Virus record (IMG/VR): IMGVR_UViG_3300046744_000384
Location: 1-24,169 of that record
DNA from: a virus
Strand: one strand, 5' to 3'
Length of the DNA: 24,169 nucleotides
Part shown: positions 1,840 through 23,260 of the stretch, one piece after another
Position numbering within the stretch: position 1 is the first letter of the stretch
How the letters are laid out: every line of letters begins with the position of its first letter
Program-made: the position numbers and the translations under genes
Notes under the pieces: model-generated
Told to the model about the DNA's origin: nothing
Database searches by the model: none
Seen by the model: the letters and a program-made list of their open reading frames with translations, nothing else

Positions 1840-3138
1840 TTAAACTTCTGTATAAAGTATTTTTTCTGTTTCAGTGCTAAACTGCGCTGTTCTCTTATCG
1901 TATTTTCCATCTCTAAATATTCCACCTTCCATTTTACCTTTCATCATTCCATTGCCATAAATGTAACAATCTTTTAATACACACGTCTGGTGAACGTATG
2001 AGCTTTCTAATTTAGAAGAATTTATCTGAGTAGATTGATAAAAATTAGATGAATGAATATCTGATCCGTTTACATCACAGCTAAAGAAATCACATTCTGT
2101 AAATTCTCCTCTGAGAAAGCACCTAATAAATTCATACCCTCTTAAATCCACGCAATAAGGAAGATTACCTCCCTCAACTTGAATTGTCCCGTTGTCAGAA
2201 TCATAGTTAATGTGCCCAACATTTAATTCACCATGGGTGAAAAGCGTCAAAACTCTTTCTCTAATATTAGGCCAATGTAAATCTATTATTTTTTCATTGT
2301 CTTTAAGATCAACTGTTAGTTTTACCTTTCCATTCCATCCCTTGTCGATATTTCTCCAATTAGATCTACTTTTTATAATTTTTTCATTTTTAGAAAGAAT
2401 TTTTCTAAGCTCTATTGCATTTAACGGTGTAAATGAAGTTGATGAAGTGCTATCCCATAATTGAGATATAAATAGCTCTAACATTTGCAATATCTTAGAA
2501 GTTTTCTTTTCCCAATCAGCACCACCCAAATATCTAAATTCTAAATAGTTTTTGTGTCTTTTTTCAAAGTTAACTCCATAGTATTTAGAATCAGGGAAAG
2601 TAAAATTACTAGGTGTAATATTTAAACCATCAAAGAAATAAGTGTCAGATTTTGGTAAAATAAATTTAATTGATTTAGCGTAGGCTGAATCCTTTCTTTC
2701 AGGAAAAAACTTGAATACTTGACTTTCTTTAAAATCTAAAATAAATTTAAGAACATTCATTTTAGAAATTCTGTGTTTATTTTCTATTTTATTAGTATCG
2801 AATGAAAGATTTAAATGAATAGAACTTCTATCATTAGTATATCCATTTTCTTCTATCCATTTACATACCTTGATAATCATCATTCTACCTGAATGATATG
2901 GCTGTGCACCAGTTACAAGTTCCATAAGCTTTTCACCTCCACTCATATCTGGTTCTATTTTGAACTCATCTCTAGTAACCTCAAAATCGCTATGTGCCTT
3001 AGATTCTACTCTAATCTTTTTACCTAAAAGACTAGCCAGTTCTTTGGCGGTATCGTCTATGGACTTGTTAGAATAAAATTCAAATTCTACCCCGATAAGA
3101 GCATTCTCCAATATTTTAGAGTTATTGATGTTGTTCAT
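1840..3138 (-). CDS. GS-fold amidoligase (COOH-NH2 ligase) fused to a pentapeptide-repeat domain
   Basis: This 432-residue protein has two parts. Residues 10-230 match the amidoligase pattern (PF12224-type): GVEFEFYS (16-23, the G-x-E-x-E metal/ATP motif), FKIEPDMS followed by MELVTGAQPY (59-81), SSIHLNLSF (105-113, the central His motif) and NYLEFRYLGG (197-206, the E-F-R motif). Such enzymes are related to glutamine synthetase and are predicted to form amide bonds between a carboxylate and an amine, using ATP. Residues 330-405 show a five-residue periodicity (for example DLRGYEFIRCFLRGEFTECD) typical of a right-handed pentapeptide beta-helix. The substrate is unknown; the gene's position among baseplate genes suggests modification of a virion protein or a cell-surface peptide, which is inference. 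A GATATATAAA motif lies 26 nt upstream, and no Shine-Dalgarno sequence is seen. Confidence 0.75.
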   Translation of the reverse strand: MNNINNSKILENALIGVEFEFYSNKSIDDTAKELASLLGKKIRVESKAHSDFEVTRDEFKIEPDMSGGEKLMELVTGAQPYHSGRMMIIKVCKWIEENGYTNDRSSIHLNLSFDTNKIENKHRISKMNVLKFILDFKESQVFKFFPERKDSAYAKSIKFILPKSDTYFFDGLNITPSNFTFPDSKYYGVNFEKRHKNYLEFRYLGGADWEKKTSKILQMLELFISQLWDSTSSTSFTPLNAIELRKILSKNEKIIKSRSNWRNIDKGWNGKVKLTVDLKDNEKIIDLHWPNIRERVLTLFTHGELNVGHINYDSDNGTIQVEGGNLPYCVDLRGYEFIRCFLRGEFTECDFFSCDVNGSDIHSSNFYQSTQINSSKLESSYVHQTCVLKDCYIYGNGMMKGKMEGGIFRDGKYDKRTAQFSTETEKILYTEV

Positions 3139-3164: not shown

Positions 3165-3174
3165 TTTATATATC
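3165..3174 (-). promoter_or_regulatory. Candidate late promoter motif (GATATATAAA)
   Basis: GATATATAAA on the minus strand, 26 nt before the amidoligase ATG and just downstream (in transcription order) of the terminator at 3199-3226. A terminator followed by this motif is what would be expected between two transcription units. Confidence 0.5.
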
Positions 3175-3198: not shown

Positions 3199-3226
3199 AA
3201 AAGCCCGGCGGAATGACCGGGCTTTT
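3199..3226 (-). terminator. Rho-independent terminator after the S1-like gene
   Basis: A perfect 10-bp stem, AAAAGCCCGG (3199-3208) with CCGGGCTTTT (3217-3226), and an 8-nt loop. On the minus strand the stem is followed by a five-T run, starting 20 bp after the stop of the S1-like gene. This is one of the few GC-rich spots in the window. It could also act weakly on the plus strand, where no gene is present. Confidence 0.9.
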
Positions 3227-3246: not shown

Positions 3247-4533
3247 TTATAATTTAAGAAATACCTTTCTGGTATCTTCTTCAACTCTAATAATTTGAAC
3301 TGTAATATCGGCGCCTTTAGATATTTCTTTAATGTCGATATTATCTGGAAATTCTGAAACATGTAATAAACCTACTACACCTTCTTCAACCTCAACAAAT
3401 AGACCATAATCTTTAGTAGACTTTACCTTTCCGATAACTTCTGTCTTTTTATTATATCTTTGTGAAATACCTTCCCATGGGTCTATTTTCTTTTCAGCTG
3501 GAGAACCCTGTACAAGTGTTATTTTTCTTTCGTTAATAACTTCTTTTACATAAAAATTAATTTCAGAACCCGGTTCTAACGTTCTTTCTCTATGTAATTT
3601 TGCAGTTTCTTTATCTAAATCATTAACATGTATCATGCCCGTTAAACATCCTTCAAATTCTACAAAGACACCATATTTTGCGGAACCTGTGACATGGCCT
3701 GTTCTTTCTACTGAAATATCTTCTTGTATTTCTTTAATCTTATTAGGAATTAAGGCTCTTAAATAAGCTCTATGAGAAACTACAACAGTTCCTTTTTCTT
3801 CAGAATAACTTACTGGAACTACATACATATCTGTTCCAATAATAGATTCAAAGTCGTGTAATTTATTAACTCCAGCTAAGGAACCTGGCATAAAACAATC
3901 TACACCTTGAACTTGTACAATATATCCTCCGCCTGGAATCATTTTAATAACTGTTCCACTATATGCTGTATTTCCTTCATTTATAGATTCTACAATTTCT
4001 CTTACCACCTTTGTTTTTAGACCGGCGGCAACTGATCCTACCATATACCTTTTGACGTTCATAGATTTATCAGCTATTAACTGTACGTCTACTTCTACGC
4101 CTGTTTGTAATAATTCTCTTACCTCTGCGGTTTCTCTAGATAAGTCTACATATATTAGTTCCCTATAACCTACGTCAATGGATGCCCAGTCTGAGTCTAC
4201 TCCATAAACTTTTCCAGTGTAACTTGAACCTAGTTGTAAATTATATTGTGTATTAGAAGTTAATGAATAACCCTCCATTAAGTCTAGTAATTCTTGGGCG
4301 TAAGGTTCCCTACTATAAACTTTAACACCGGGAGGTGCCTTAACATGTGGGTTTGGTTTTCTAAATTTAGTTGGACAATCTGCTTCGTAAGCTTCCCAGT
4401 TAAAATCTTCAAGTGGTTCTGGGGAATTTAAAAGGCTTTCATCTTTTGAAGTTTCTTCGATTTTTACTTCTACTTCTTGTGTTTTTGTAGAGATTCTTTG
4501 TCTCTTTTGTTTAATTGTTGTCTTTGTTGACAT
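3247..4533 (-). CDS. Ribosomal protein S1-like protein with four S1 domains
   Basis: A 428-residue protein. After a charged, low-complexity N-terminus (about 1-65) it has four S1/OB RNA-binding repeats at about 101-168, 187-256, 274-342 and 363-428. Repeats 3 and 4 are the clearest: TGHVTGSAKYGVFVEFEG with TGMIHVNDL, and IGKVKSTKDYGLFVEVEEG with VGLLHVSEF. The linker DPWEGISQRY is the typical bacterial S1 linker. Cellular S1 usually has four to six repeats and brings mRNA to the 30S subunit, and in Bacteroidota, where Shine-Dalgarno sequences are rare, S1 or other features are thought to matter more. I infer that the phage copy biases translation or mRNA handling toward phage messages. The gene has its own motif (4573-4581) and terminator (3199-3226), so it is a monocistronic unit within the tail module. 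Confidence 0.9.
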   Translation of the reverse strand: MSTKTTIKQKRQRISTKTQEVEVKIEETSKDESLLNSPEPLEDFNWEAYEADCPTKFRKPNPHVKAPPGVKVYSREPYAQELLDLMEGYSLTSNTQYNLQLGSSYTGKVYGVDSDWASIDVGYRELIYVDLSRETAEVRELLQTGVEVDVQLIADKSMNVKRYMVGSVAAGLKTKVVREIVESINEGNTAYSGTVIKMIPGGGYIVQVQGVDCFMPGSLAGVNKLHDFESIIGTDMYVVPVSYSEEKGTVVVSHRAYLRALIPNKIKEIQEDISVERTGHVTGSAKYGVFVEFEGCLTGMIHVNDLDKETAKLHRERTLEPGSEINFYVKEVINERKITLVQGSPAEKKIDPWEGISQRYNKKTEVIGKVKSTKDYGLFVEVEEGVVGLLHVSEFPDNIDIKEISKGADITVQIIRVEEDTRKVFLKL

Positions 4534-4572: not shown

Positions 4573-4581
4573 TTATATATC
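4573..4581 (-). promoter_or_regulatory. Candidate late promoter motif (GATATATAA)
   Basis: GATATATAA on the minus strand, 39 nt before the ATG of the S1-like gene and overlapping the last bases of the preceding structural gene (stop at 4580-4582). It gives the S1 gene a 5' untranslated region of roughly 30 nt if it works as a -10 element. Confidence 0.5.
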
Positions 4582-6310
4582 AAATTACGGTGGCGTCAAA
4601 TCCTATCATCGGAATGTATGGAACAGTTCCTGCAGGAATGCCTCCAAGGTAAATAAATTTCATCTCGCTAAGGTGTGTAAAATAAGAATACGCAAGCGCC
4701 TTAGCCACCGCAGCCGCAGCTCCAGCCCTATCTAATCCATAATCTTTTCCAGAATTAAGTGCTCTTCGTATATTGTCTGCTAATTTCTTTTGATTTCCGT
4801 AACTAACTCCTATGTATTTTCCGCCCAAAGGGGGAACAGAAATGCACGGTGGGGTTGGTGCAGAAGTTGCAAAAGGCTGTAACTTTGCGTCTTTCCAATA
4901 TTTAAGAGTTGCCTTAGCAAGTTCTTTATATGGATCGTCTTTACTACCTCCCTCTGCCAACATCGCAGCTTCTAATCCTAATTCAACTATTAAGGTATTT
5001 CTAATTTGTTTTGCAACAGTACCAGTTTTGGACATATCTATATTCACTATAGAATCGGTGCCTTCATCGGACTCTGTCAATGGACACCCAAACCATTTTT
5101 TTCTTAATTCGGTTTTAATAAAGGCTTGATTGAGTTTACTTTTTCTTTGGCCATATTCTTTAGTTCCGTTCCACGTAAATTCTGAAATAACATTTGTAGT
5201 TAATACAGGTGGCATCTGTGGATTTTCATCATAAGGTTCCTGTATTTTTAAGTTAGTTAATTTAAAAGGGTATCTAACTTTCATCTTTTCACCTGGTTCC
5301 ATTTCCTCATAATTCTCAGGTAGTTCGTTATCGAATGGCCATGGATATTTAATAGGCTGTATAGCCTCCGCCTTTATAGCTCTTTCATGCCATACTGTAG
5401 TTAAAACAATAGTTCTATTAGTACCTGTTGCCCATGTAGCATCTTCGTCTAGGGGATGTGCTTTCATTATTTCTTCATAAACGTATTTTACAACTAACTT
5501 ATGAAATTCTCCATTCCTGTTTCTTGTGTTATTTGTAATTCCAACTTCCTTTTGAAAATCACTCCAACTCCAGTCAAGTTTTTTTAATTCGTTAATAGCT
5601 GAAGTCCTATTTGCAACCCTGTCATTAATGACAGCATTTGTCACGCCTCCAGTATCTCCATTATTACTTGAGTTATGTTTATTTGTTTCAAATTTATTTA
5701 ACCAACGTATAAAATCCCATCTCCTATCTTTAGCGGGCTTAAGGCCGTCAGTAATATCTTCAAATTGCATCAATAGTCTAGTTGCAAAAATTCTGGCCAA
5801 CTCATCTGCACTTTCTTTTCCATCTAGGCGATGAAATTCAAAATACTTAAATCTATATAGATCTTCTACATTGTCATCTTTATACTTCTCTAAGTACTTA
5901 TCGAGTTCTTCGGTGGGTTGATATTGTATACCTCCTCCAATTTCTCCTTCTAATTTATTATATGCGGGATCACTATCCTTTCCAGCGATACTTAATCTAG
6001 ATCCAGCTCCAGCTGCACTTGCAAGCCATGCTGCAATTCCTAATTTTTCTTCTTCGGTATCAGGAGATACCATTACAGGTTCTCCTTTTTCAAAAAGGTC
6101 TGTAAACCATTGTTCATAGCTTGAAATAAATGCAGATTCTCCGGGTGAAGATTCATGAATGGCTGTTCCAGGAACACATGTTGCAAGGGTTTTAACAGCT
6201 GCTAAATATTCATTAGCTAATTTATTACCAAAATCTCCTGCTGTGTCTGGAGTTTGTTCTAGAAGAATTTTGGTTACGTTTGTTATAAATGTTGGCCAAA
6301 GTGCAGTCAT
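4580..6310 (-). CDS. Large putative baseplate/tail structural protein, function unknown
   Basis: A 576-residue protein I do not recognise. The N-terminus (MTALWPTFITNVTKILLEQT) is a helix, and the middle is hydrophilic and rich in W, K and E. The C-terminus has an Ala-rich segment (GAAAAVAKALAYSYFTHLSE) and then a Gly/Pro-rich hydrophobic end (GGIPAGTVPYIPMIGFDATV). No catalytic motif and no signal peptide are seen. The gene follows the gp5-like spike gene with only a 2-bp gap, and its start at 6310 follows that stop directly, so it is very likely translated with the hub/spike genes. A role in the baseplate, or as a tail-tip or tail-fibre adaptor, is inferred from position only. Confidence 0.6.
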   Translation of the reverse strand: MTALWPTFITNVTKILLEQTPDTAGDFGNKLANEYLAAVKTLATCVPGTAIHESSPGESAFISSYEQWFTDLFEKGEPVMVSPDTEEEKLGIAAWLASAAGAGSRLSIAGKDSDPAYNKLEGEIGGGIQYQPTEELDKYLEKYKDDNVEDLYRFKYFEFHRLDGKESADELARIFATRLLMQFEDITDGLKPAKDRRWDFIRWLNKFETNKHNSSNNGDTGGVTNAVINDRVANRTSAINELKKLDWSWSDFQKEVGITNNTRNRNGEFHKLVVKYVYEEIMKAHPLDEDATWATGTNRTIVLTTVWHERAIKAEAIQPIKYPWPFDNELPENYEEMEPGEKMKVRYPFKLTNLKIQEPYDENPQMPPVLTTNVISEFTWNGTKEYGQRKSKLNQAFIKTELRKKWFGCPLTESDEGTDSIVNIDMSKTGTVAKQIRNTLIVELGLEAAMLAEGGSKDDPYKELAKATLKYWKDAKLQPFATSAPTPPCISVPPLGGKYIGVSYGNQKKLADNIRRALNSGKDYGLDRAGAAAAVAKALAYSYFTHLSEMKFIYLGGIPAGTVPYIPMIGFDATVI

Positions 6311-6312
6311 TC

Positions 6313-7038
6313 TTATTTATTTTCTTGTTGATAATCAGGGTGTTTACTTTTCAAAGATGCAACGCCTGATGGGGTAGGCGGCAATGAGACTGCGGTTCCT
6401 GATGGACCAACACCGGTCGGATGTATATGGTTTTCGAAAAGGGTTAAATACTCATCTAACCATGCTTCTAGAGATTTACCTCTTACAGCTGGTTCAGATG
6501 TGTCTTCTCCTTCTTCACCCGTATTACTTAAATATACATTTCCTGAATCTAAAAATACTCTCGCTTCGGTTGAGATTTTTATATCACCTGCTTCGTCGAT
6601 TTGAATTATAGGTCTTTCTTTTGCACCACTTCCTCTGGTAATTACCAAACCATCTTCTTCTGAATGATAGATTCTTACATTTCTTTCAGCATCATATACT
6701 AAACTAATTACATTTTCAGCATTGCCAGCGCCGTCTAATATATCTGCCTTAAGGTCTTTATTCTGATCGATGTGAAACCAATATTCAGGATGATATAGGT
6801 TTCCATTATCAAATCTAGCGGAAACAATATCTCCTATTCTTGGAACATGATGTGAACCTACTGCGTCTCTATTCATGGGAGTTGCCCATGGAATAGCATC
6901 ATCTGGTAAATTATCAAACTTTCCCAAAACTTTAACCTTGCATCTACCTAGCTTAAGAGGATCGACATTATCGATTACTTCTCCTAACCAGTGAGTGTCT
7001 CTAAGGTTATCAGTATTTAATTCTTTTTCAGTTGACAT
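6313..7038 (-). CDS. Baseplate central spike, gp5/gpV-like (OB domain, no lysozyme)
   Basis: A 241-residue protein. Residues about 15-92 form a gp5/gpV-type OB domain: HWLGEVIDNVDPLKLGRCKV, then IPWATP, RIGDIVSARFDNG and HPEYWFHI, the usual order in spike proteins (motif V..I.DP...GR..V...G, then PW..P, then G..V...F..G). A short beta region with repeated DAE/DEAGDIKIST strands follows, then a C-terminal segment with ENHIHPTGVGPSG, commonly seen near the end of myovirus spike proteins. T4 gp5 carries a lysozyme domain between these parts; none is present here, so this is a gpV-style spike. It pierces the outer membrane as the central tip of the tail in related phages. It overlaps no gene but is only 3 bp from the upstream gene. 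Confidence 0.85.
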   Translation of the reverse strand: MSTEKELNTDNLRDTHWLGEVIDNVDPLKLGRCKVKVLGKFDNLPDDAIPWATPMNRDAVGSHHVPRIGDIVSARFDNGNLYHPEYWFHIDQNKDLKADILDGAGNAENVISLVYDAERNVRIYHSEEDGLVITRGSGAKERPIIQIDEAGDIKISTEARVFLDSGNVYLSNTGEEGEDTSEPAVRGKSLEAWLDEYLTLFENHIHPTGVGPSGTAVSLPPTPSGVASLKSKHPDYQQENK

Positions 7039-10459: not shown

Positions 10460-10933
10460 TTAAGTTCTTATTTCCCCGTTAGTAACTTCGATATTGGTTT
10501 GCCCCGATTGTAATATGTTAGGTGGCAATATTTCTTTATTATATTTCTTGCTTAAATACTTAATTCTATTAGCATCCTTCACCGGTAATCTTTTCGTGTT
10601 TATAAACTGATCTCTAATAGGATTTTTATAGTTTTTATTTAAGGTAAGCTTCCATTTTTTCTTAGCAACATCTATCTTAGGTATAAGAAGAACATCTCCT
10701 TCTGTGATTGAAAAAGGATTAGATATTCCATTAAACTTTAAAATAGCATCCACATGGTCATGTGTTCCGTATTCGGAAAGAGACACTAGATCTATTCTAC
10801 ATGTTTCATCATTTTCAACAACATGAACAGATTGAACGGAACTTTCTGCCATTTCTAGAAAAATAAAAGAAGGCGTTGACATTGTTAGTTTTCCTTCAGA
10901 TATTTCTTTTTTATCTATACTATATAATTTCAT
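10460..10933 (-). CDS. LysM-like baseplate protein (gp53/gpX-like)
   Basis: A 157-residue protein. Residues about 36-88 resemble the LysM-like domain of tail protein X and of baseplate gp53: CRIDLVSLSEYGTHDHVDAI, then LKFNGISNPFSITEGDVLLI and PKID. The order (D-L-x-S, Y-G, D-x-I-L-K-x-N-G-I-x-N-P-F, G-D-x-L-x-I-P) is characteristic. In contractile tails this protein helps bind wedge or tube parts of the baseplate. The rest is basic and unstructured. It starts 2 bp after the preceding tube-like gene and ends 4 bp before the hub gene, so all three are co-translated neighbours. I cannot tell gp53 from gpX function by sequence alone. Confidence 0.7.
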   Translation of the reverse strand: MKLYSIDKKEISEGKLTMSTPSFIFLEMAESSVQSVHVVENDETCRIDLVSLSEYGTHDHVDAILKFNGISNPFSITEGDVLLIPKIDVAKKKWKLTLNKNYKNPIRDQFINTKRLPVKDANRIKYLSKKYNKEILPPNILQSGQTNIEVTNGEIRT

Positions 10934-10935
10934 TC

Positions 10936-12693
10936 TTACCCGTTAGCTATTTTTCTAAATTCAGAGTTAAGAGCCTTTCTCTTATCTTTTCCACCGTATG
11001 CGGTTTCCACATAAACTTGATTAACATCAACTCCATCTTCAGGTTGTAAATAAAATCTACCTCTACCCATATTAAACATAGATTCAATATCTAATTTATC
11101 TCTACCTCTACCAGGCTTTAATGTGATTTCAACAACCATTCTTTCAGGAAAATCTTGAACACCTAATCCTCCTTCAAAGGTTACATTAGTTTCTCTACAT
11201 GTAAGATTACCTACCATCATAATAGGATTTAATGGATTTCCAACCGTAAGGTGCCATGCACCAGTAGGATCTCCTGTTAGTAGAGAAGCTGCTGCTTGTC
11301 CACCTGATGGAGAATTAAATAGTTTCATTAGTGTTCCACCTAATATATTATTTAAGAATTTACTATCCTTTCCAGATGCTAAATTACTAACATCCTTTTT
11401 AACACCCTGGAACATATCTCCTAATCCTGAAGCGACACTTTTAATAAATCCGCTATAATTACCAGATTTAATTAAACTTAAATCTCCTAAAGGTTTTCCT
11501 GCTCCTCCGCTTCCAACATATCTTACGGCTCCTCCCCAGAATGGAGCTTGACTAGATGTTAAAACCATGATGTTGGCCAGTTGATCTAGCATCATAACCT
11601 TAGGGTTTGCTCCGCCGAAAGATCTTAATTCATATTCAAATTTAAGTTTGAATTCTTGACTAAACGTTAGTCCTTGCTCTCTAAAGGCAACATCTTTTAT
11701 AACATTAACAGGTCCAAACACATGATTTGGATATGTATTTTCCATATAATCGTATCCGCTTCCTCCGTTTTTTCTTCTTTGTGCTGTGATTCCATCGACA
11801 CCGGCTGCAGCGTTAGCGGCTGCAGTACCTATTACACTTGAATCCAAGAACTGACCGAAGGCACCTCTTCTACTGGAATTATTAGATTGTTTAGTTTGCA
11901 CACTTGCTGATTCATCTTTCCAATTATATCCATGAGACCACCCTAAAATATCAGACATACTATTACCGGTAACTTCACTCATCCACGTAACTGCCCTTGC
12001 AATATCTGGCTGATCAACTTCTCTGGGCTTTCCAGCCTTATCAATATTCATCGGTGTGATAATATCATCCTGTACGGGATATGGGAATCTTCTAAGTGTT
12101 AATAGATAATTATTAGGTATTTTACCATTATATCTACATAGCGCAAAATCTGCATAATTATACATATATCCATAGCCGCTTGTGGAAGAAGCATTGTTTT
12201 TAGTAATTTCAACTATTTTAGAAACAGTAGGATTATCTAAAGTTCTTTCATCTATTTTATTATATTCTTCCTTATCGGCTCCTTTTGCCTTTGCAGATCC
12301 GCCCGGTGTAAAGAAACTACCCCTATAATTTACAAGCGAATATTTGTTAAATACGGAATATGCGTGCTTTCCGTCTGTGATTTCTTCTTTAGTGTCTTTT
12401 CCATCAGGGCCTCTCTTATAATATATTACCGATTGAGCCTCTTGTGTATAGTATTGTGCTTTACCACCGGGTCTAACATTACTGAGAGGTTCTCCAACTA
12501 ACATTGCCCTACTTCTTGCGTTTGGATTATCGAACGTTCCAAGAATAGTGTCCTGTGGATCAACGTTCTTAGGTACTCCTGATCCGTCCGGACTGGATAA
12601 ATCGAAAAAATTATCAACCTTGTCTCCGAAACCGGAAACAGATGATTTTAAACTGGAAGCTGTTGCGGTAGATACTAACCCAAATAATGGCAT
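10936..12693 (-). CDS. Large tail tube/baseplate cap-like structural protein
   Basis: A 585-residue Gly/Ser-rich protein, first gene of the tail operon behind a GAATATATAA motif. The N-terminal half contains long polar stretches and GYGYMYNYADFALCRYNGKI. The second half has two beta-rich segments that look like halves of a tail-tube fold: EQGLTFSQEFKLKFEYELRS with a following helix (MMLDQLANIMVLTSSQAPFW), and AWHLTVGNPLNPIMMVGNLT with TFEGGLGVQDFPERMVVEIT. The C-terminus ends in GRGRDKLDIESMFNMGRGRF. This is compatible with gp48/gp54-type tube-capping proteins, which share the tube fold. The functional name is inferred from fold-like patterns and the adjacent LysM and hub genes. Confidence 0.55.
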   Translation of the reverse strand: MPLFGLVSTATASSLKSSVSGFGDKVDNFFDLSSPDGSGVPKNVDPQDTILGTFDNPNARSRAMLVGEPLSNVRPGGKAQYYTQEAQSVIYYKRGPDGKDTKEEITDGKHAYSVFNKYSLVNYRGSFFTPGGSAKAKGADKEEYNKIDERTLDNPTVSKIVEITKNNASSTSGYGYMYNYADFALCRYNGKIPNNYLLTLRRFPYPVQDDIITPMNIDKAGKPREVDQPDIARAVTWMSEVTGNSMSDILGWSHGYNWKDESASVQTKQSNNSSRRGAFGQFLDSSVIGTAAANAAAGVDGITAQRRKNGGSGYDYMENTYPNHVFGPVNVIKDVAFREQGLTFSQEFKLKFEYELRSFGGANPKVMMLDQLANIMVLTSSQAPFWGGAVRYVGSGGAGKPLGDLSLIKSGNYSGFIKSVASGLGDMFQGVKKDVSNLASGKDSKFLNNILGGTLMKLFNSPSGGQAAASLLTGDPTGAWHLTVGNPLNPIMMVGNLTCRETNVTFEGGLGVQDFPERMVVEITLKPGRGRDKLDIESMFNMGRGRFYLQPEDGVDVNQVYVETAYGGKDKRKALNSEFRKIANG

Positions 12694-15750: not shown

Positions 15751-17175
15751 TTAAGCTTCTGGCGTTTCTTCACCTACTGCTGAATCAGATTCTTTCATCT
15801 CATTCACTTTCTTAGAATATGCTTCGATCATTTCATTACATGCAGCTTCATAAGCTTCAACAGAATAATCTTCTTTCATTTCTTTAAGGCATTTAGCAGC
15901 TAATCCACCAACTAATGCAGCATTTTCTTTCATGTAAGTTTCTACTGTATGCTCATCATGTGCATCAGATTCCCATGCTTTAGCTTCGTTTTTACATGCT
16001 TCATACACCTCAGATAACATATCAGAAACTGCTTTAGTTTCTTCAGCTTCTTCTTCTGCAACTTCTTCAGATTCTTCAGATTCTTCAGATTCAGAAATTT
16101 CTTCATTACCTGCGCCGTCAACTGTATCTTCTAATTCAGTTTCTAATTCTTTTGACTTATCTTCAGGAGCTTCAACATCGTTATCAACTTCTTTAGTTTC
16201 ATCTTTTAAATCTTCAGCAGGTAAACCAGCTTCTTCTCCAGATTCAGTAATTGTCTTTACTGATTCTGAGAATTCTTCAAGATGTTCCATGTCTATTTCT
16301 CCCTCTCCTTTTAGCGCTTTTTGTACTTCTTTAGACTTTAATAACTTTTCTATTTCTTTAATGTCGTATGGTCCGTCACCAAGCTTTTCTTGAGCAAAGT
16401 CAGCTAGAATATAATATTGATTAGAAGAATATCCTTCACCATCTCTAAAATCTGCAACTTCTTCGATGTCTGCTTTAGCAATTTTCTTACCTTCAGCAAC
16501 TTTTTCAGATTCACATACACAAGGTTCTTCGTTACATGCTCCACATGATTCTTCAACCGTTTCAGTTTCAACCGATTCAAATGATAAAGAATCAATAGCA
16601 ATGTTCATTGAAACCATTTCCATTGGTTTAGTACCATCTTGATAGTCTACGGTAGCCATACTACCTGATTTGTTAAAAGATAAAATCTTAAATCTTCCAG
16701 GGAATCTGATATTTTCACCATAAACTGTTTCGCCTTTTTCGACGGCCTTTATAGCTTTCTTAATTTTAGCGTGAATACCTTCATTTACTTCTTCAGTTTC
16801 AACGGATTCAAATTGTAAAGAATCAATTCTGATATTCATTGAAGCCATTTCCATTGGTTTAGTACCATCTTCATAGTCCACTGTTGCGAACATATCTCCA
16901 AGTTCTATGATTTTAAATCTTCCAGGAAATCTAACGTTTTCTCCGTAAACAGTTTCGCCGTTCTTAATTGCTTTTTGAGCTTTCTTTAATTTAGGGTGTA
17001 CACCTTCATTTACTTCTTCAGTAGATTCTTCTACAGCATCACCATTACCCTGAACTTCTTCCGCTTCTTCTTCTGAATGTTCAACTGGCTCAGCAGTAGC
17101 AACTACATCTTGTTGCACTTCTTCAGCTCTATCCATTTCAGATAAAAACTGTTCAAATGATTTTAATTTTGCCAT
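15751..17175 (-). CDS. Acidic, internally duplicated putative capsid-internal/core protein
   Basis: A 474-residue, strongly acidic protein. The N-terminus MAKLKSFEQFLSEM matches the shared motif of this cluster; L-S-E at its end fits a T4-type prohead protease site. Two tandem repeats of about 75 residues follow (54-128 and 129-206), each starting EVNEG[V/I]H and containing GETVYGEN[V/I]RFPGRFKI and DGTKPMEM. Residues 211-221 hold four Cys (CGACNEEPCVC), possibly metal-binding. Then come a helical stretch, a Glu/Ser-rich low-complexity region (about 355-380) and a helical C-terminal domain (390-460). It has its own promoter motif 25 nt upstream and a strong terminator, suggesting high expression. 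I infer a head core, scaffold or internal protein cleaved during maturation; a generic acidic DNA-mimic is the main alternative. Confidence 0.6.
   Translation of the reverse strand: MAKLKSFEQFLSEMDRAEEVQQDVVATAEPVEHSEEEAEEVQGNGDAVEESTEEVNEGVHPKLKKAQKAIKNGETVYGENVRFPGRFKIIELGDMFATVDYEDGTKPMEMASMNIRIDSLQFESVETEEVNEGIHAKIKKAIKAVEKGETVYGENIRFPGRFKILSFNKSGSMATVDYQDGTKPMEMVSMNIAIDSLSFESVETETVEESCGACNEEPCVCESEKVAEGKKIAKADIEEVADFRDGEGYSSNQYYILADFAQEKLGDGPYDIKEIEKLLKSKEVQKALKGEGEIDMEHLEEFSESVKTITESGEEAGLPAEDLKDETKEVDNDVEAPEDKSKELETELEDTVDGAGNEEISESEESEESEEVAEEEAEETKAVSDMLSEVYEACKNEAKAWESDAHDEHTVETYMKENAALVGGLAAKCLKEMKEDYSVEAYEAACNEMIEAYSKKVNEMKESDSAVGEETPEA
16558..16791 (-). repeat. Tandem repeat unit 2 inside the acidic protein gene
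   Basis: Encodes residues 129-206. It is similar to the preceding unit, with a four-residue length difference, and shares EVNEGIHAK, GETVYGEN, RFPGRFKI, DGTKPMEM and SFESVETE. The DNA is also clearly alike (for example around 16600-16640 and 16840-16870), so the duplication is fairly recent. Confidence 0.85.
16792..17016 (-). repeat. Tandem repeat unit 1 inside the acidic protein gene
   Basis: Encodes residues 54-128, the first of two tandem units. Both begin with EVNEG, where V-N-E followed by G is close to a prohead protease site, so each unit could be released as a separate fragment. That is inference. Confidence 0.85.
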
Positions 17176-17218: not shown

Positions 17219-17749
17219 TTATAAGGTTTTGATGTTATTTCTTTTTATCCAATCTTCTAACTTTTTAGTGGCTGCGTCAAACATTCTACTTCTACTATAA
17301 TCCTTTCCATGATTTTTAAACCATTCTTTAGTAATATAGTATGCTGGTTCTACTGGTTCGTCGTTAGCAACCATGTCTTCAACCATTTTACTTAATCCTA
17401 GTGCAATCACTGCACCTTCCCATTCGAACGCAGTATATCCTCTAATATCATTCCATTTGTCATTAAGAAATTGACTACCTGTTTTACCAAACTCTTTATC
17501 TCTTAGTTTACGATCTGCGTATATTTTAAACAATTCGTCTCCTAAAGAATTAGTCCATATTGACATGTTCTGGTGTTCACTGTCATACACCTTATCCATC
17601 ATACCCGCTTTAATAATTTCTTTACGAGTCTTTTCTATCCATTTGGGGTATTTAATTTTACCGTTACCTTTAATCCACTTGTCGTAGTCGTATTTGCTAA
17701 CTCCTTCGTTTAAGGATGTAAACTCTTCAAATAGTTTTAGGTGCTTCAT
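17219..17749 (-). CDS. Putative capsid-targeted internal protein (176 aa)
   Basis: I choose the ATG at 17749 over the one at 17788. It sits 4 bp after the upstream stop (TAATAAGATG) and gives the N-terminus MKHLKLFEEFTSLNEGVSKY, matching neighbouring proteins. The motif M-K-x-L-K-x-F-E-x-F is followed by L-N-E-G, a possible prohead protease site. The remaining 160 residues are rich in Lys and Trp and mostly helical (KWIKGNGKIKYPKWIEKTRK, EWFKNHGKDYSR). The mature protein looks basic, like T4 internal proteins IPI-III. The enzymatic function is unrecognised; no catalytic motif is visible. A packaged protein delivered with the DNA is the inference. Confidence 0.6.
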   Translation of the reverse strand: MKHLKLFEEFTSLNEGVSKYDYDKWIKGNGKIKYPKWIEKTRKEIIKAGMMDKVYDSEHQNMSIWTNSLGDELFKIYADRKLRDKEFGKTGSQFLNDKWNDIRGYTAFEWEGAVIALGLSKMVEDMVANDEPVEPAYYITKEWFKNHGKDYSRSRMFDAATKKLEDWIKRNNIKTL

Positions 17750-17753
17750 CTTA

Positions 17754-18068
17754 TTAATAGTCTCTATGACCTCCGTTAATTCTTTCAATTTTATCGTATT
17801 CTCTTCTTGAATAATTAGAAGAATCGCCTGAAATTGAAATGTCTCTATTTCCGTATAAACCCATTTTATCTAATCTATCGATGATGTCTTCGGCAATAGG
17901 ATCAGGGGCATCCATTCCTATAAGAATGTCTATTTCATTCCATTTAGAAACAAACATTACAGTTATTGGATATTTTGATTTTTTCAGCGCTTTAACTACC
18001 TTATCAAAATCTTTTTCGGTAATCTTAGCTTCACCTATAAACTGTTCAAATAATTTTACTTTTTTCAT
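17754..18068 (-). CDS. Putative capsid-targeted internal protein (104 aa)
   Basis: The N-terminus MKKVKLFEQFIGEAK has the shared motif and then I-G-E before A, an exact fit to the T4 prohead protease rule ([L/I]-x-E then small residue). The likely mature part begins at A14 and is a small alpha/beta domain: TEKDFDKVVKALKKSKYPIT, VMFVSKWNEIDILIGMDAPD, PIAEDIIDRLDKMG. Its strand/helix order would fit a ferredoxin-like fold, but this is only a guess. It starts 2 bp after the upstream gene's stop. Confidence 0.6.
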   Translation of the reverse strand: MKKVKLFEQFIGEAKITEKDFDKVVKALKKSKYPITVMFVSKWNEIDILIGMDAPDPIAEDIIDRLDKMGLYGNRDISISGDSSNYSRREYDKIERINGGHRDY

Positions 18069-18070
18069 AA

Positions 18071-18721
18071 TTAGCCGTTCATTATTCTTATTAATTTGTC
18101 TGCAAAAGATTTATTGAAACCATAGTTAGAAGAAAGGCCTATCGTAGAATAATTAGTACCTGATTCGTGATTAACAAAAACTCCGCCGTCTGATGAATTA
18201 AATTCATCTAATATAAATAATAGTTCGTAAATTTCTTGAAATAATTTATCTTTAGCCGCAGAGCTAATTCCACCTCCACATGTAACTGCGATTAAATAGC
18301 TTCTTCTGCCACCTGGTGTAAAATTAGATCTACCTTCAATTTTACCACCGACGGTTGATCTCATTGTACCTGACCATCCGCCTGCTGCAGGAACTGAAGA
18401 TTGTTCAGTTTCATATTTCTTATATTTCTTTATGACTTTAGAAATTTCTTCTGCTAATTTAATAGCGTTTCTTCCTTGAAATATTTGATAAGTGTCTTTT
18501 TTATCTCCTCCAGCTACATTGATATGTTCTTTATAATTAGATAACTTACCCGATTTAAGCATAGATTCTATCTCTTTATATTGAGATTGGTATGAGTCTC
18601 CCCATTTAGATATAGCCATTTTAGCTATTGACAATTTATCTTCTAATTTTGCTCTAATTCCTTTTTTACCAAAAGCAGCAGATTCATTTATAAAAGATTC
18701 AAATAGTTTTACATTTCTCAT
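18071..18721 (-). CDS. Putative capsid-targeted internal protein (216 aa)
   Basis: The N-terminus MRNVKLFESFINESAAFGKK has the shared motif followed by I-N-E before S, again a candidate prohead protease site. The mature protein would be basic: helices KLEDKLSIAKMAISKWG and AIKLAEEISKVIKKYKKYET, a Gly/Ser-rich loop (AAGGWSGTMRSTVGG), and a beta segment (RRSYLIAVTCGGGISS). The start overlaps the upstream stop as ATGA. No known enzyme family is recognised. Its charge and position fit the other cluster members. Confidence 0.6.
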   Translation of the reverse strand: MRNVKLFESFINESAAFGKKGIRAKLEDKLSIAKMAISKWGDSYQSQYKEIESMLKSGKLSNYKEHINVAGGDKKDTYQIFQGRNAIKLAEEISKVIKKYKKYETEQSSVPAAGGWSGTMRSTVGGKIEGRSNFTPGGRRSYLIAVTCGGGISSAAKDKLFQEIYELLFILDEFNSSDGGVFVNHESGTNYSTIGLSSNYGFNKSFADKLIRIMNG

Positions 18722-19062
18722 GTTAATTTTATCTGTAATTTTAGAGGAGTTTTACCAGGAATTATTCTATGATATACTCCGGCCTCTATCTTTATATATC
18801 CTTTTAAAGGGATGGGTATTTTATTGTCGTATTGAAACTTCCAGTCGTTATCTTCTATCGCATTGATAATTCTATCCTGCTCATCGAAGTGCCATTTAAA
18901 AAGATGGTTAGGTTGATTAGGTTGAAATTCCCTGATGATTATATTTTCTGAAATAATTGTCTCTGTAAAAGGAAGAGTTTGGTCATCTATCATAGAAATC
19001 ATTTCATTCATTGACATTGTTCCACATCCGCAATTTTTACATTTGCAATCTTCGTTTACCAT
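18718..19062 (-). CDS. Small cupin-like protein with N-terminal Cys cluster (114 aa)
   Basis: The ATG at 19062 (ATGGTAA overlap with the upstream stop) is preferred over the upstream one at 19116, which would add 18 residues inside the neighbour's coding region. The N-terminus has DCKCKNCGCG, four Cys in eight residues, likely metal-binding. The rest resembles a small single-domain cupin: NHLFKWHFDEQDRIINAIED, PIPLKGYIKIEAGVYHRIIP, GKTPLKLQIKL, with His and Glu residues at about the places used for metal in cupins. It lacks the capsid-targeting motif of its neighbours. The family call is from pattern memory and the substrate is unknown. Confidence 0.5.
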   Translation of the reverse strand: MVNEDCKCKNCGCGTMSMNEMISMIDDQTLPFTETIISENIIIREFQPNQPNHLFKWHFDEQDRIINAIEDNDWKFQYDNKIPIPLKGYIKIEAGVYHRIIPGKTPLKLQIKLT

Positions 19063-19595
19063 GGTTGGTCGCTCTTTAGTCCTAATTGTTTTCCGAATAG
19101 AGTAGGTCCATAGCATGCCCAGAATCCATTTTTATTAGGGTCCATTTTTGACATTTTATCACATCCATGTCTTGCCCAAAAATTAGCAGCTCTACCTGGA
19201 TCGTCGTTTTTAACAGTGGACGAAGGATCTCCCCATTCTAACTTTTTAGCAATGACGTTTCCTTCTTTATCAGTTCTTCCAGTGTTTCTATAAACTATGA
19301 ATTTCTTTTTTCCACCTCTTTCTGGTGAATCTAATTTTACGTTTATTTGTTTTCCTCCTCTCGGTTTATAAATAGCTTTTTTACCTACTTCTAAGTTTTT
19401 TGCCATCCATCCTGAAGGACCCTTTAAAATAATATTGTTTTTATCCCAATATTGTTTTACCTCTTCAAAGAGTTTTGAATATGCATCGCTTCCTAATCGA
19501 AAGAAAGAATTAGTTAAATCTAAGCCCTCATCAACATGGGCCTTTAGCTCAGGAGAAACGCTATCCCACTCTTCAAATGTTTTAATAAACTTCAT
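19056..19595 (-). CDS. Putative capsid-targeted protein with a conserved RHxCD-type C-terminal domain (179 aa)
   Basis: The N-terminus MKFIKTFEEWDSVSPE matches the cluster motif, with W in place of F; no clear I/L-x-E site follows, though V-D-E-G is at 21-24. Residues about 95-165 match a small domain that I recall from many phages and some giant viruses: KKKFIVYRNTG, DPGRAANFWARHGCDKM, NGFWACYGP, with conserved R, H and C residues. The function of that domain is unknown to me. A GATATATAA motif ends 3 nt before the ATG. It is the first gene of the internal-protein cluster. Confidence 0.6.
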   Translation of the reverse strand: MKFIKTFEEWDSVSPELKAHVDEGLDLTNSFFRLGSDAYSKLFEEVKQYWDKNNIILKGPSGWMAKNLEVGKKAIYKPRGGKQINVKLDSPERGGKKKFIVYRNTGRTDKEGNVIAKKLEWGDPSSTVKNDDPGRAANFWARHGCDKMSKMDPNKNGFWACYGPTLFGKQLGLKSDQPW

Positions 19596-19598
19596 AAC

Positions 19599-19607
19599 TT
19601 ATATATC
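19599..19607 (-). promoter_or_regulatory. Candidate late promoter motif (GATATATAA)
   Basis: GATATATAA on the minus strand, 3 nt before the ATG at 19595, heading the putative internal-protein cluster. It overlaps the end of the UV endonuclease gene (stop at 19607-19609). Confidence 0.5.
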
Positions 19608-20539
19608 TATGATAGAACGAGCTCCTTTAAAAACTCTTTCTTATATCTCTGCAGTGCAAGTTCTTTTGCCTTTGCTTCGAGCTCGATATCCAGATCCATG
19701 CCGTATGTTTCGATGTGGTCATATACGTAATCTGCATGTGCACGTTTGTTGCCTTGTGTGGCATCTTCGTGTATTTGTTTGCATGAAGAATAGTGGCATA
19801 GTTGTCGAATTCCTTTAGGCCACGATTTAGCAGCAAGTTCTAGTGCTTCTTTTTCTGGCATAGGATCTTCGTAACACCAGTGATGATGATAGTCGAATGT
19901 GATCGGGGTTTTCCCTGTCAGTAAATGTATGTCATATAAATCTTGTACAGAATATTGTGCTGTTTTATCGTCGTTTTCGATTACAAGTCGATTCGCTGCA
20001 CCTGGAACAAGTCTTTTGAAATTATTTGCAAATCTTTGCTTAGTAGCTTCTTTATCGTCATATGTTCCGCCGATATGAATATTAATAGCGGAGTATGGGG
20101 TTTGAGGAAGACCGAGCATATCCATAATTTCTGAATGTTGTCGTAAATCTTTAAGAGCTTTTTTTACAACCGCTTCATTAGGAGAAGCAAGAACATTGAA
20201 AGGACCGGGATGAAAAGTAAGTCTTTGTCCGTATTGCTTTGCTAGTTGACCTGCACCTTTAAGAAGATTAGAAAGTTTATCATAATCGGGAAGATCGGTT
20301 AATTCATATTCAGACATCCATGGAAACATATCACTTGACATACGATACATTGTTATATCATTCTTATAGTTCCACTTGATAATTTCTATCATGTCCTTAA
20401 TATTTAATACTGCAAGTTCCGATGCGTATTTAATACCCTTTTCTTCAAAGGTTCTTTTAATCATTTTTCTACCAACATATATGTTTGATTCTTTTTTAAG
20501 AGTCATGTTGATACAACAATATCCGTAGTCTGCTGCCAT
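19607..20539 (-). CDS. uvsE: UV-damage endonuclease (UVDE/UvsE family)
   Basis: A 310-residue TIM-barrel nuclease, close to the usual length of bacterial UVDE. The enzyme nicks DNA 5' of UV photoproducts, starting repair. Family motifs are in order: GYCCIN (6-11), RMSSDMFP (66-73), LTFHPGPFNVLASP (107-120, metal-binding H110), INIHIGGTYDDKE (152-164, H155), RLVIENDD (184-191, E188) and FDYHHH (215-220, D216). The nearby gene is transcribed in the same direction behind 10 bp. Its base composition looks less AT-rich than its neighbours, in line with acquisition from a host. A phage could use it to repair its genome after sunlight damage in surface water, which is inference. Confidence 0.95.
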   Translation of the reverse strand: MAADYGYCCINMTLKKESNIYVGRKMIKRTFEEKGIKYASELAVLNIKDMIEIIKWNYKNDITMYRMSSDMFPWMSEYELTDLPDYDKLSNLLKGAGQLAKQYGQRLTFHPGPFNVLASPNEAVVKKALKDLRQHSEIMDMLGLPQTPYSAINIHIGGTYDDKEATKQRFANNFKRLVPGAANRLVIENDDKTAQYSVQDLYDIHLLTGKTPITFDYHHHWCYEDPMPEKEALELAAKSWPKGIRQLCHYSSCKQIHEDATQGNKRAHADYVYDHIETYGMDLDIELEAKAKELALQRYKKEFLKELVLS

Positions 20540-21580: not shown

Positions 21581-21713
21581 CGTCTTGTTTTTTATGTTTC
21601 TTTTTTCTTCGATACTTTTTCTTATTTCTAACGGGAGTAGGCATACGAAGAGCATCTAGCCACTCTTGCAATGTTAAATTTACTTCTTTTAATTTCTTAC
21701 CTTCGTTTTCCAT
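21567..21713 (-). CDS. Small basic protein (48 aa) overlapping both neighbours
   Basis: A 48-codon frame starting at 21713, where its ATG forms TAATG with the upstream stop, and ending 14 bp inside the next gene. The sequence is MENEGKKLKEVNLTLQEWLD, then ALRMPTPV, then a strongly basic tail (RNKKKYRRKKKHKKQDDGNI). The packing is typical of coupled phage genes and explains the stretch between 21580 and 21713. The Lys/Arg tail suggests nucleic-acid binding; the function is unknown. Confidence 0.6.
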   Translation of the reverse strand: MENEGKKLKEVNLTLQEWLDALRMPTPVRNKKKYRRKKKHKKQDDGNI

Positions 21714-21937
21714 TACCTTTCTAAAATTACGAAATCTCCAAACGCTTCGTCAAATACCTTAATAAGATTTTCATAGTCTCCTTCTGTCATTTGAGAATAA
21801 AGAGTTTCCCAATCCTTTCCGAGATCTTTTGAAAAACTTTTTGCATAGGCTAATAGCATGAAGGCATTTCCTTCAGGTCCTGTTAAGTCGATTATTACAG
21901 GATTTGATTGATGTTTGTGTAGTTTTTTTCTGATCAT
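21713..21937 (-). CDS. Conserved small phage protein (74 aa), function unknown
   Basis: The sequence opens MIRKKLHKHQSNPVIIDLTG, then PEGNAFMLLAYAKSFSKDLG and a C-terminal helix (DYENLIKVFDEAFGDFVILE). The combination NPVIIDLTGPEGNAF...A...LG..GDY..L...F...FGD resembles a small uncharacterised protein I recall from several T4-like phages; its role is not known to me. It is the first gene after promoter repeat copy 2, so it is probably expressed early. Confidence 0.65.
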   Translation of the reverse strand: MIRKKLHKHQSNPVIIDLTGPEGNAFMLLAYAKSFSKDLGKDWETLYSQMTEGDYENLIKVFDEAFGDFVILER

Positions 21938-22052: not shown

Positions 22053-22649
22053 TTATAAAAACCTTTGGGTAAGTTTATTTAATGGATATTCATTGTCTTC
22101 AGATTCCATTTTTTCTGGATGCCATTGTACTGCCCATATTTTATTGTCTAAATCCTCAAAGGCTTCAATAACAGAATACGAAGGATAAGAAAGATGTGTT
22201 GCCTTGAAGTTATTTGATAACACGCTACAGTGCTGATGATGCCTTGAATTAACCGTTGTTAATGTTCCATTTAAATCTTCAACTGCATGAAACTGAGATG
22301 GCTTTCCGCTATGATCTATGTTCTCTGAAAAGTCTGCTGATTTATGATCTTCTACTATTGCATCAGATAAATCTTCTACCTTTCCTCCAAAATAATGATT
22401 TAGGATTTGCATTCCTCTGCATATTCCCAATATTCTATTATTAGAATCTAAAGCCTGTTTAATCCATACAAATTCCCTGGCATCTCTTTCTTCATCTTTT
22501 CCAATGTCTGCTCCTCCACATAGTAACAGGGGTCCTTTAACTTTACGTCTAAGATCGAGCCAAATTATTTCATGACCAAACCTAACAAGCCAATTTTGAA
22601 TTGACTCCCTTTCTCTTTTTCCTCGTGGCGGTGCTACATAAATAATCAT
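22053..22649 (-). CDS. Class I glutamine amidotransferase-like protein (peptidase C26 type)
   Basis: A 198-residue protein with the complete catalytic triad of the family: GICRGMQ (Cys77 as nucleophile) and QWHPE (His177, Glu179). LLLCGGADIG (41-50) and VNSRHHQHC (133-141) are typical of gamma-glutamyl-GABA hydrolase/PuuD-type C26 members. Such enzymes hydrolyse gamma-glutamyl amide bonds or release ammonia from glutamine. No synthase domain is attached. The start follows a transcription terminator by only a few bases and has no Shine-Dalgarno sequence. The window also encodes an amidoligase (1840-3138), whose relatives often occur with this family, so the two may act together. The substrate is unknown. 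Confidence 0.9.
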   Translation of the reverse strand: MIIYVAPPRGKRERESIQNWLVRFGHEIIWLDLRRKVKGPLLLCGGADIGKDEERDAREFVWIKQALDSNNRILGICRGMQILNHYFGGKVEDLSDAIVEDHKSADFSENIDHSGKPSQFHAVEDLNGTLTTVNSRHHQHCSVLSNNFKATHLSYPSYSVIEAFEDLDNKIWAVQWHPEKMESEDNEYPLNKLTQRFL

Positions 22650-22687: not shown

Positions 22688-23248
22688 CTACGCTTTAAAC
22701 GTAGAATTTACTCTATCGACAATTTTATTATCCTTGTACGCTCCTTTAAAATGCTTAACTAATTCTTTATTAGCCTTCTTTTTATCTGAGCTCGATAGTT
22801 TATTAAACCTATCTTCTATTGCAGAATTATTTCTCTGAGCAGCTCTATATTTGCCACCGTCGTCAATGTATTGATAATAAAAATCATAAGACTTGGCATA
22901 TTTTAGGAAGAGCTCTAGATCTGACATGTTTTCTTTTTCCAGTCTAGATTTTAAATCGCTTGATTCTATTTTCTTTTTATTAAGATAAAATTCCCACTGA
23001 CCTCTCCAGTTTCCAACCTTAAACATGTGGATTGTATATTTACCTACTTTAGCTTCAAACTTAATTCCTTTATCTTCTATAGAAACATCCTTTATAGATT
23101 TAATCCATTTATCTTTAAAGGTTGGCATTAATTTTTTAAGAGTTAAAAATGCATCTTCCTTTAATTCTTCAGGGCTACCCCATCTACTTCTAGGATGTTG
23201 ATAATCAGAATATTTCTGATAATTTTCAAATGTCATTAAATGTTTCAT
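22688..23248 (-). CDS. Lys-rich protein with capsid-targeting-like N-terminus (186 aa)
   Basis: The N-terminus MKHLMTFENYQKYSDYQ resembles the cluster at 15.7-19.6 kb (M-K-x-L-x-x-F-E-x-[Y/F]), with M instead of K at position 5 and no clear I/L-x-E site. The body is basic: FLTLKKLMPTFKDKWIKSIK, a beta pair (KGIKFEAKVGKYTIHMFKVG, WEFYLNKKKI) and a helical end (SSSDKKKANKELVKHFKGAY). A GATATATAA motif ends 3 nt before the ATG and a terminator follows, so it is a single-gene unit. It may be another packaged protein; the family is unrecognised. Confidence 0.6.
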   Translation of the reverse strand: MKHLMTFENYQKYSDYQHPRSRWGSPEELKEDAFLTLKKLMPTFKDKWIKSIKDVSIEDKGIKFEAKVGKYTIHMFKVGNWRGQWEFYLNKKKIESSDLKSRLEKENMSDLELFLKYAKSYDFYYQYIDDGGKYRAAQRNNSAIEDRFNKLSSSDKKKANKELVKHFKGAYKDNKIVDRVNSTFKA

Positions 23249-23251
23249 AGA

Positions 23252-23260
23252 TTATATATC
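23252..23260 (-). promoter_or_regulatory. Candidate late promoter motif (GATATATAA)
   Basis: GATATATAA on the minus strand, 3 nt before the ATG at 23248. It lies in the 28-bp gap after the small membrane protein gene. Context on both sides (ATAGATATATAA, then ATG) is nearly the same as for the gene starting at 19595. Confidence 0.5.

Follow-up and report, generated by a model that had tools for sequence, protein, structure and literature searches.

What does an amidoligase do when it is fused to a pentapeptide-repeat helix and encoded among the tail genes of a phage? The question is raised by a single gene on the minus strand (positions 1840–3138) of the window analyzed here, i.e., the whole 24,169-nucleotide stretch of the IMG/VR virus record IMGVR_UViG_3300046744_000384.

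Results

Architecture of the fusion protein

The open reading frame (ORF) at 1840–3138 runs exactly from ATG to stop and encodes 432 residues, an assignment that draws on the ORF, Pfam, an alignment, and a structural model. The glutamine synthetase (GS)-like enzyme domain (residues 1–300; 2239–3138, minus strand), recognized by its invariant residues and by the model, contains the three motifs GVEFE, SIHLNLS, and LEFRY just where a preliminary description of this DNA had read them, namely at G16-V-E18-F-E20, S106-I-H108-L-N110-L-S112, and L199-E200-F-R202-Y203. In Pfam, Amidoligase_2 (PF12224) matches the window protein at 26 bits, just above the curated cut-off of 22, with only residues 14–69 aligned, and it is matched by 38 of 59 homologs at E ≤ 0.1; a search for PF14395 (COOH-NH2_lig) gave no match even among the controls and is hence uninformative. 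With the family match, the fold (see below), and the motif residues all present, the enzyme domain is a GS-like member of Amidoligase_2.

The C-terminal part forms a pentapeptide (quadrilateral) β-helix (residues 325–427; 1858–2166, minus strand), identified from a profile match, a period-5 signal, and the model. The profile match, to McbG-like pentapeptide proteins, is weak (E = 5e-4); the period-5 hydrophobic signal is found over residues 325–415 (permutation p = 0.006, as against 0.66 in the enzyme domain) and again in the homolog alignment (p about 0.01). Some 17 five-residue units can be written between residues 330 and 414, 10–12 of them with a hydrophobic center, and the earlier count of about 15 was thus a fair one. 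The Pfam pentapeptide models do not match the window protein itself at E ≤ 10; Pentapeptide_4 is matched by 23 of the 59 homologs (best E = 2.6e-6).

An AlphaFold2 model of the fusion protein built from the 59 homologs (pLDDT 91, pTM 0.82) has an alpha/beta enzyme domain up to about residue 300 and, from about residue 325 to 427, three-residue strands at five-residue spacing, with a regular repeat from 341 to 409. The enzyme domain aligns with 4bax_A (VIA-align Z = 11.8, 3.5 Å over 184 residues) and, in Foldseek, with glutamine synthetases (E = 5e-5), and the 50 VIA-align matches listed are glutamine synthetases and their relatives. Structure prediction had been named beforehand as the check on a GS fold with E18/E20, H108, and E200/R202 as its ATP and metal residues; the fold is present in the model, and these residues are invariant in the 59 homologs, their equivalence to the metal and ATP ligands of GS being assigned by motif rather than from superposed coordinates.

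Conservation and distribution

Across the same 59 homologs, with identities down to about 31%, E73 and N110 are likewise invariant, and the motifs KIEPD.SGG and KYYG are invariant or nearly so, both in these sequences and in a 20-sequence alignment with blocks. Ka/Ks is about 0.1 in the enzyme and in the helix (window-lineage pairs), i.e., both are under purifying selection. The predicted GS fold, the invariant motif residues, and the low Ka/Ks together make it probable that the enzyme is active and has not decayed. The last coil of the helix ends in an unusually conserved C-terminal cap, GxMxGGxFRxG, in which M403, G406, R409, and G411 are invariant; its conservation in both of the phage lineages described below may mean that this part of the helix binds a partner or closes off the structure.

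Relatives are encoded in at least 543 IMG/VR stretches. Six of 50,697 phage records carry one, all of them uncultured genomes of 462–735 kb, and no cellular homolog was found in one profile scan of genome contigs, which worked via two short peptide patterns and was not exhaustive. Two lineages can be told apart, that of the window and a giant lineage (25 loci from 500–735 kb phages, about 30–35% identity), and in both of them the two halves of the fusion stay joined.

The tail-module neighborhood

A contractile-tail (myovirus-type) module, with gp25, gp5/gpV, LysM/gp53, tube-initiator, and neck genes, lies near the locus. On the minus strand, a gene for an Ad2-like neck or head-tail adaptor protein (990–1823) is directly downstream of the amidoligase gene, followed by one for a gp25-like baseplate wedge (620–973). 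Upstream, on the same strand, are genes for an S1-domain protein (3247–4533), a gp5/gpV-like baseplate spike OB-domain protein (6313–7038), a LysM/gp53-like baseplate protein (10460–10933), and a probable tail-tube initiator with a gp48/gp54-like fold (g585; 10936–12693). The setting among S1 and structural genes given in the preliminary description is borne out by the Ad2-, gp25-, and gp5/gpV-like neighbors. The assignment of g585 comes from a low-confidence model (mean confidence 57) of which the core alone is interpretable. This core has its best match in the P1 baseplate (Z = 8.8), nearly all of the structural matches listed are baseplate, tube, or cap proteins, and Foldseek alone gives no match at E ≤ 0.001; the modeled core looks like the tube initiators that contractile tails have in their baseplates. 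Elsewhere in this region, g576 (window 4580–6310) has a highly variable middle and conserved ends among its relatives, as in diversifying exchange, and is possibly a surface-exposed tail part.

An independent search with the neck protein found the amidoligase immediately upstream of the neck gene in 80 of 80 loci. Within the window lineage, the order S1–amidoligase–neck (Ad2-like)–gp25 hardly varies, apart from small genes occasionally inserted after S1, and it is retained in a 462-kb phage at 38% identity. The giant lineage is rearranged: the amidoligase adjoins a tail operon in most loci, usually in divergent orientation, and this operon begins with a g132-like gene (E = 8e-5), after which g585-, LysM-, and hub-like genes follow in most loci. 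With window proteins as queries, no tail neighbor was detected in the searched flank of three loci (L084, from the 735-kb phage, L173, and L194). That the linkage has outlasted rearrangement in the giant lineage is, in our view, the strongest indication that amidoligase and tail are functionally connected.

It should be noted that seven phages share a g585-type tail gene and have no amidoligase (no family-profile match even at E ≤ 10). The tail type therefore does not need the enzyme in general, and the idea that the amidoligase is a universal part of the g585-type tail is ruled out. Phages with a homologous g585 infect mostly Bacteroidota (Tenacibaculum, Prevotella, Chryseobacterium, and Flavobacterium), and one may reasonably guess that the window phage has a host from this group.

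The position in the tail module and the rigid β-helix would also suit a fusion protein that forms part of the tail and works, as an enzyme or as a mere scaffold, at the recipient envelope during entry; in the related type VI apparatus, spike-tip chaperones likewise carry fused pentapeptide-repeat domains (PMC11883445). An ATP-dependent ligase would, however, be without ATP outside the cytoplasm, and yet the active site is invariant, and we regard such a virion-borne role as improbable.

Upstream regulatory elements

The amidoligase gene is preceded, 36 nt upstream of its ATG, by the AT box GATATATA (3167–3174, minus strand), which is kept in homologs, where it is the most conserved stretch in an alignment of 20 upstream regions, and is common to tail genes. 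The corresponding word, RATATATA, occurs nine times on the coding (minus) strand of the window, in eight cases within 60 nt upstream of a gene start; the opposite strand has a single occurrence, which overlaps with one of these nine. Among 128 AT words, RATATATA is the top-ranked one (p = 2e-6 against the AT-word background). The tube-initiator gene has the box at 36 nt, as does the amidoligase gene. RATATATA is likely a late promoter element of the phage. A T4-type late promoter, TATAAATA, is absent upstream of the amidoligase, where the shared box is RATATATA, and a generic sigma-70 scan did no better than shuffles. The boxes upstream of gene starts lie at minus-strand positions 23260, 19607, 17212, 12729, 8343, 4581, 3174, and 986, at about 12–13 nt from the start in four genes and about 36–48 nt in the other four; the former, if promoters, would imply nearly leaderless transcripts.

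The gap between the S1 and amidoligase genes also holds a terminator-like hairpin (3199–3226, minus strand; −17.7 kcal/mol, z = −3.7), and the closest relatives carry a similar one. Given the hairpin and the AT box in this gap, the transcription unit would be amidoligase–neck protein–gp25. Of the baseplate operon put forward in the preliminary description, the tail and baseplate neighbors stand, while S1 falls outside the unit; an operon with S1, or read-through behind it, is weakened by the hairpin and by the lost S1 linkage in the giant lineage. In several relatives the same gap contains a copy of a 74-residue gene (g74; window 21713–21937), which is found at distant places among relatives (L056:4712–4933 and L070:4496–4711; also L140, L141, L160, and L161).

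RimK adds glutamate to ribosomal S6, and by analogy the amidoligase might modify the translation apparatus or the phage S1 protein encoded next to it. The S1 gene is directly upstream in most window-lineage loci, as this would lead one to expect; set against it are the hairpin between the two genes and the giant lineage, which keeps the linkage to the tail and in which that to S1 is not seen. We consider a target of this kind very improbable.

Co-occurrence with peptidase C26 and GGACT

A gene for a peptidase C26/class I glutamine amidotransferase-like protein (22053–22649, minus strand) lies far from the amidoligase in the genome and is connected with it through co-occurrence only. Among 11 amidoligase carriers with complete or large records, six have C26 and three others GGACT, i.e., nine of 11 have one of the two, as against none of the seven g585-type phages that lack the amidoligase. 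Fisher's test (p = 0.002) treats related genomes as independent; the association is carried by few lineages, and because of this relatedness the events that are truly independent are few. Within the window lineage, C26 was present in 6/6 records in one test and 5/8 in another; across phages its relatives are rare (13 of 50,697 records). GGACT was found in three distant genomes only, and in the giant lineage neither gene was found in two large records (of 636 and 508 kb) or in nine further fragments. The pattern is suggestive of C26 as a possible γ-glutamyl-cleaving counterpart of the amidoligase, which is a lead toward γ-glutamyl chemistry and no evidence of mechanism.

The same data could be read to mean that the enzyme γ-glutamylates a small molecule, making a polyamine or other amine conjugate in the manner of PuuA and PuuD, with C26 catalyzing the reverse reaction and the tail linkage reflecting late expression only. 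The GS fold would allow PuuA-like chemistry, and the C26 protein, PuuD-like and rare in phages, would be a fitting partner. Nevertheless, the C26 gene lies at a distance from the amidoligase gene and did not turn up in the giant lineage, and a small substrate would make a docking helix unnecessary; we give this reading little probability.

Two further observations concern this end of the window. A gene for a UvdE-type UV endonuclease is located at 19607–20539, and several small genes next to one another (17219–19595) encode a similar N-terminus, M-K-x-x-K-L/T-F-E-x-F/W, that is also found at 15751–17175 and 22688–23248 and has the look of a common leader that is processed, or of a peptide for capsid targeting.

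Discussion

We tentatively favor, as the best explanation, a late ATP-dependent ligase that is docked on the tail through its helix and makes an amide bond, perhaps of the γ-glutamyl type, on a tail or neck protein; such a substrate is preferred because of the family chemistry, the docking helix, and the tail linkage taken together. Ligases of the GS-like family proceed through an acyl-phosphate intermediate to an amide product. Here, the group phosphorylated by the enzyme would be a carboxylate, probably that of a glutamate side chain or of a protein C-terminus; once activated, it would react with an amine, and the bond formed would be an amide or an isopeptide. As a docking arm, the β-helix would bring the enzyme to the tail, baseplate, or neck assembly, and the tail or neck substrate would be either crosslinked or capped with an amino acid or a small amine. 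Peptidase C26 may limit or reverse γ-glutamyl products in the window lineage. Catalysis, late timing, docking, γ-glutamyl chemistry, and the virion as substrate are all steps that we infer, and gene neighborhood alone is insufficient proof of a virion substrate. That the enzyme may modify a virion protein had been suggested in the preliminary description; the suggestion is strengthened by the kept tail linkage and the shared promoter box, and it is still one that we infer.

A further proposition, which we hold to be doubtful, is that two or more lineages of giant phages use a dedicated, tail-docked ligase to covalently crosslink or tag their own tail or neck proteins via ATP-made isopeptide bonds. 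Crosslinking in HK97 is autocatalytic, and a tail-docked ligase would be its enzymatic counterpart. If virion proteins are indeed modified, the enzyme would be the first ATP-driven amide ligase known to us that is dedicated to the assembly of phage tails, encoded by a gene that hundreds of uncultured large phages carry, one of them of 735 kb. The prediction is testable by mass spectrometry, with the neck protein, the tube initiator, and the gp25-like wedge as possible substrates.

For the amidoligases of LUZ24-, phiEco32-, and PSA-HP1-type phages, envelope modification and superinfection exclusion have been proposed (PMC5498523, PMC10580990). Applied to the window protein, this hypothesis would have the enzyme form amide bonds in peptidoglycan or another host envelope peptide and so bring about superinfection exclusion or altered lysis. 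The enzyme family and fold are the same as for these amidoligases, and many carrier genomes have C26 or GGACT genes elsewhere. However, the phage cassette described for such enzymes (amidoligase, COOH-NH2 ligase, GATase, ATP-grasp, and AIG2; PMC3890496) is absent around the gene, whose neighbors are S1, neck, gp25, and baseplate genes and which has its AT box in common with the neck and tail genes among which it sits. We therefore judge the host envelope, which the preliminary description had named as an alternative in the form of a host surface peptide, an unlikely target. The comparison with known systems is as follows.

GS-like amidoligases of phages and bacteria (Amidoligase_2) were reportedly described by Iyer et al. 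in 2009, as cited in PMC10580990. The window protein is like Amidoligase_2 (PF12224) in its family match, GS fold, and GxExE, HxNxS, and LEFR motifs, and unlike it in the added pentapeptide helix and the tail-module location, with no amidoligase–GATase–ATP-grasp cassette seen nearby. With the peptide-modification cassettes of LUZ24, UFV-P2, and PSA-HP1 it has in common a phage amidoligase of the same Pfam family (PMC3890496, PMC5498523), but those cassettes are early or replication-side and include ATP-grasp, GATase, and AIG2 genes, whereas the window gene stands alone among tail genes. The amidoligase of Agrobacterium phage Atu_ph07 (AUZ94978.1; L208:6930–8432), also from a jumbo phage, is encoded two genes from the portal gene; it differs in aligning to the enzyme domain only and in lying on the strand opposite to its structural neighbors. 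The structural linkage of phage amidoligases may be broader. MfpA, Qnr, and McbG-like pentapeptide-repeat proteins share with the fusion a weak profile match and a regular short-strand β-helix, which in the window protein is short and enzyme-fused.

A database search for the fusion, as proposed in the preliminary description, had a mixed outcome: BFVD holds one full-length fold match, the nameless, uncharacterized protein A0A6J5PQ40 of an uncultured Caudovirales phage (TM 0.84/0.82, 23% identity), which shares the fusion architecture, and PHROGs and NCBIfam have no usable family for the fusion protein. No characterized phage example had been known to the preliminary description, and our literature searches agree, the enzyme family as such being already known in phages; a huge-phage study (PMC7162821) does not mention an amidoligase, and the literature searched, to which subscription literature did not belong, contained no description of the fusion and its tail-module location in giant phages. 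The parts are known, then, and it is the fusion of the two domains, together with its place in the tail module of giant phages, that is new with respect to the literature searched.
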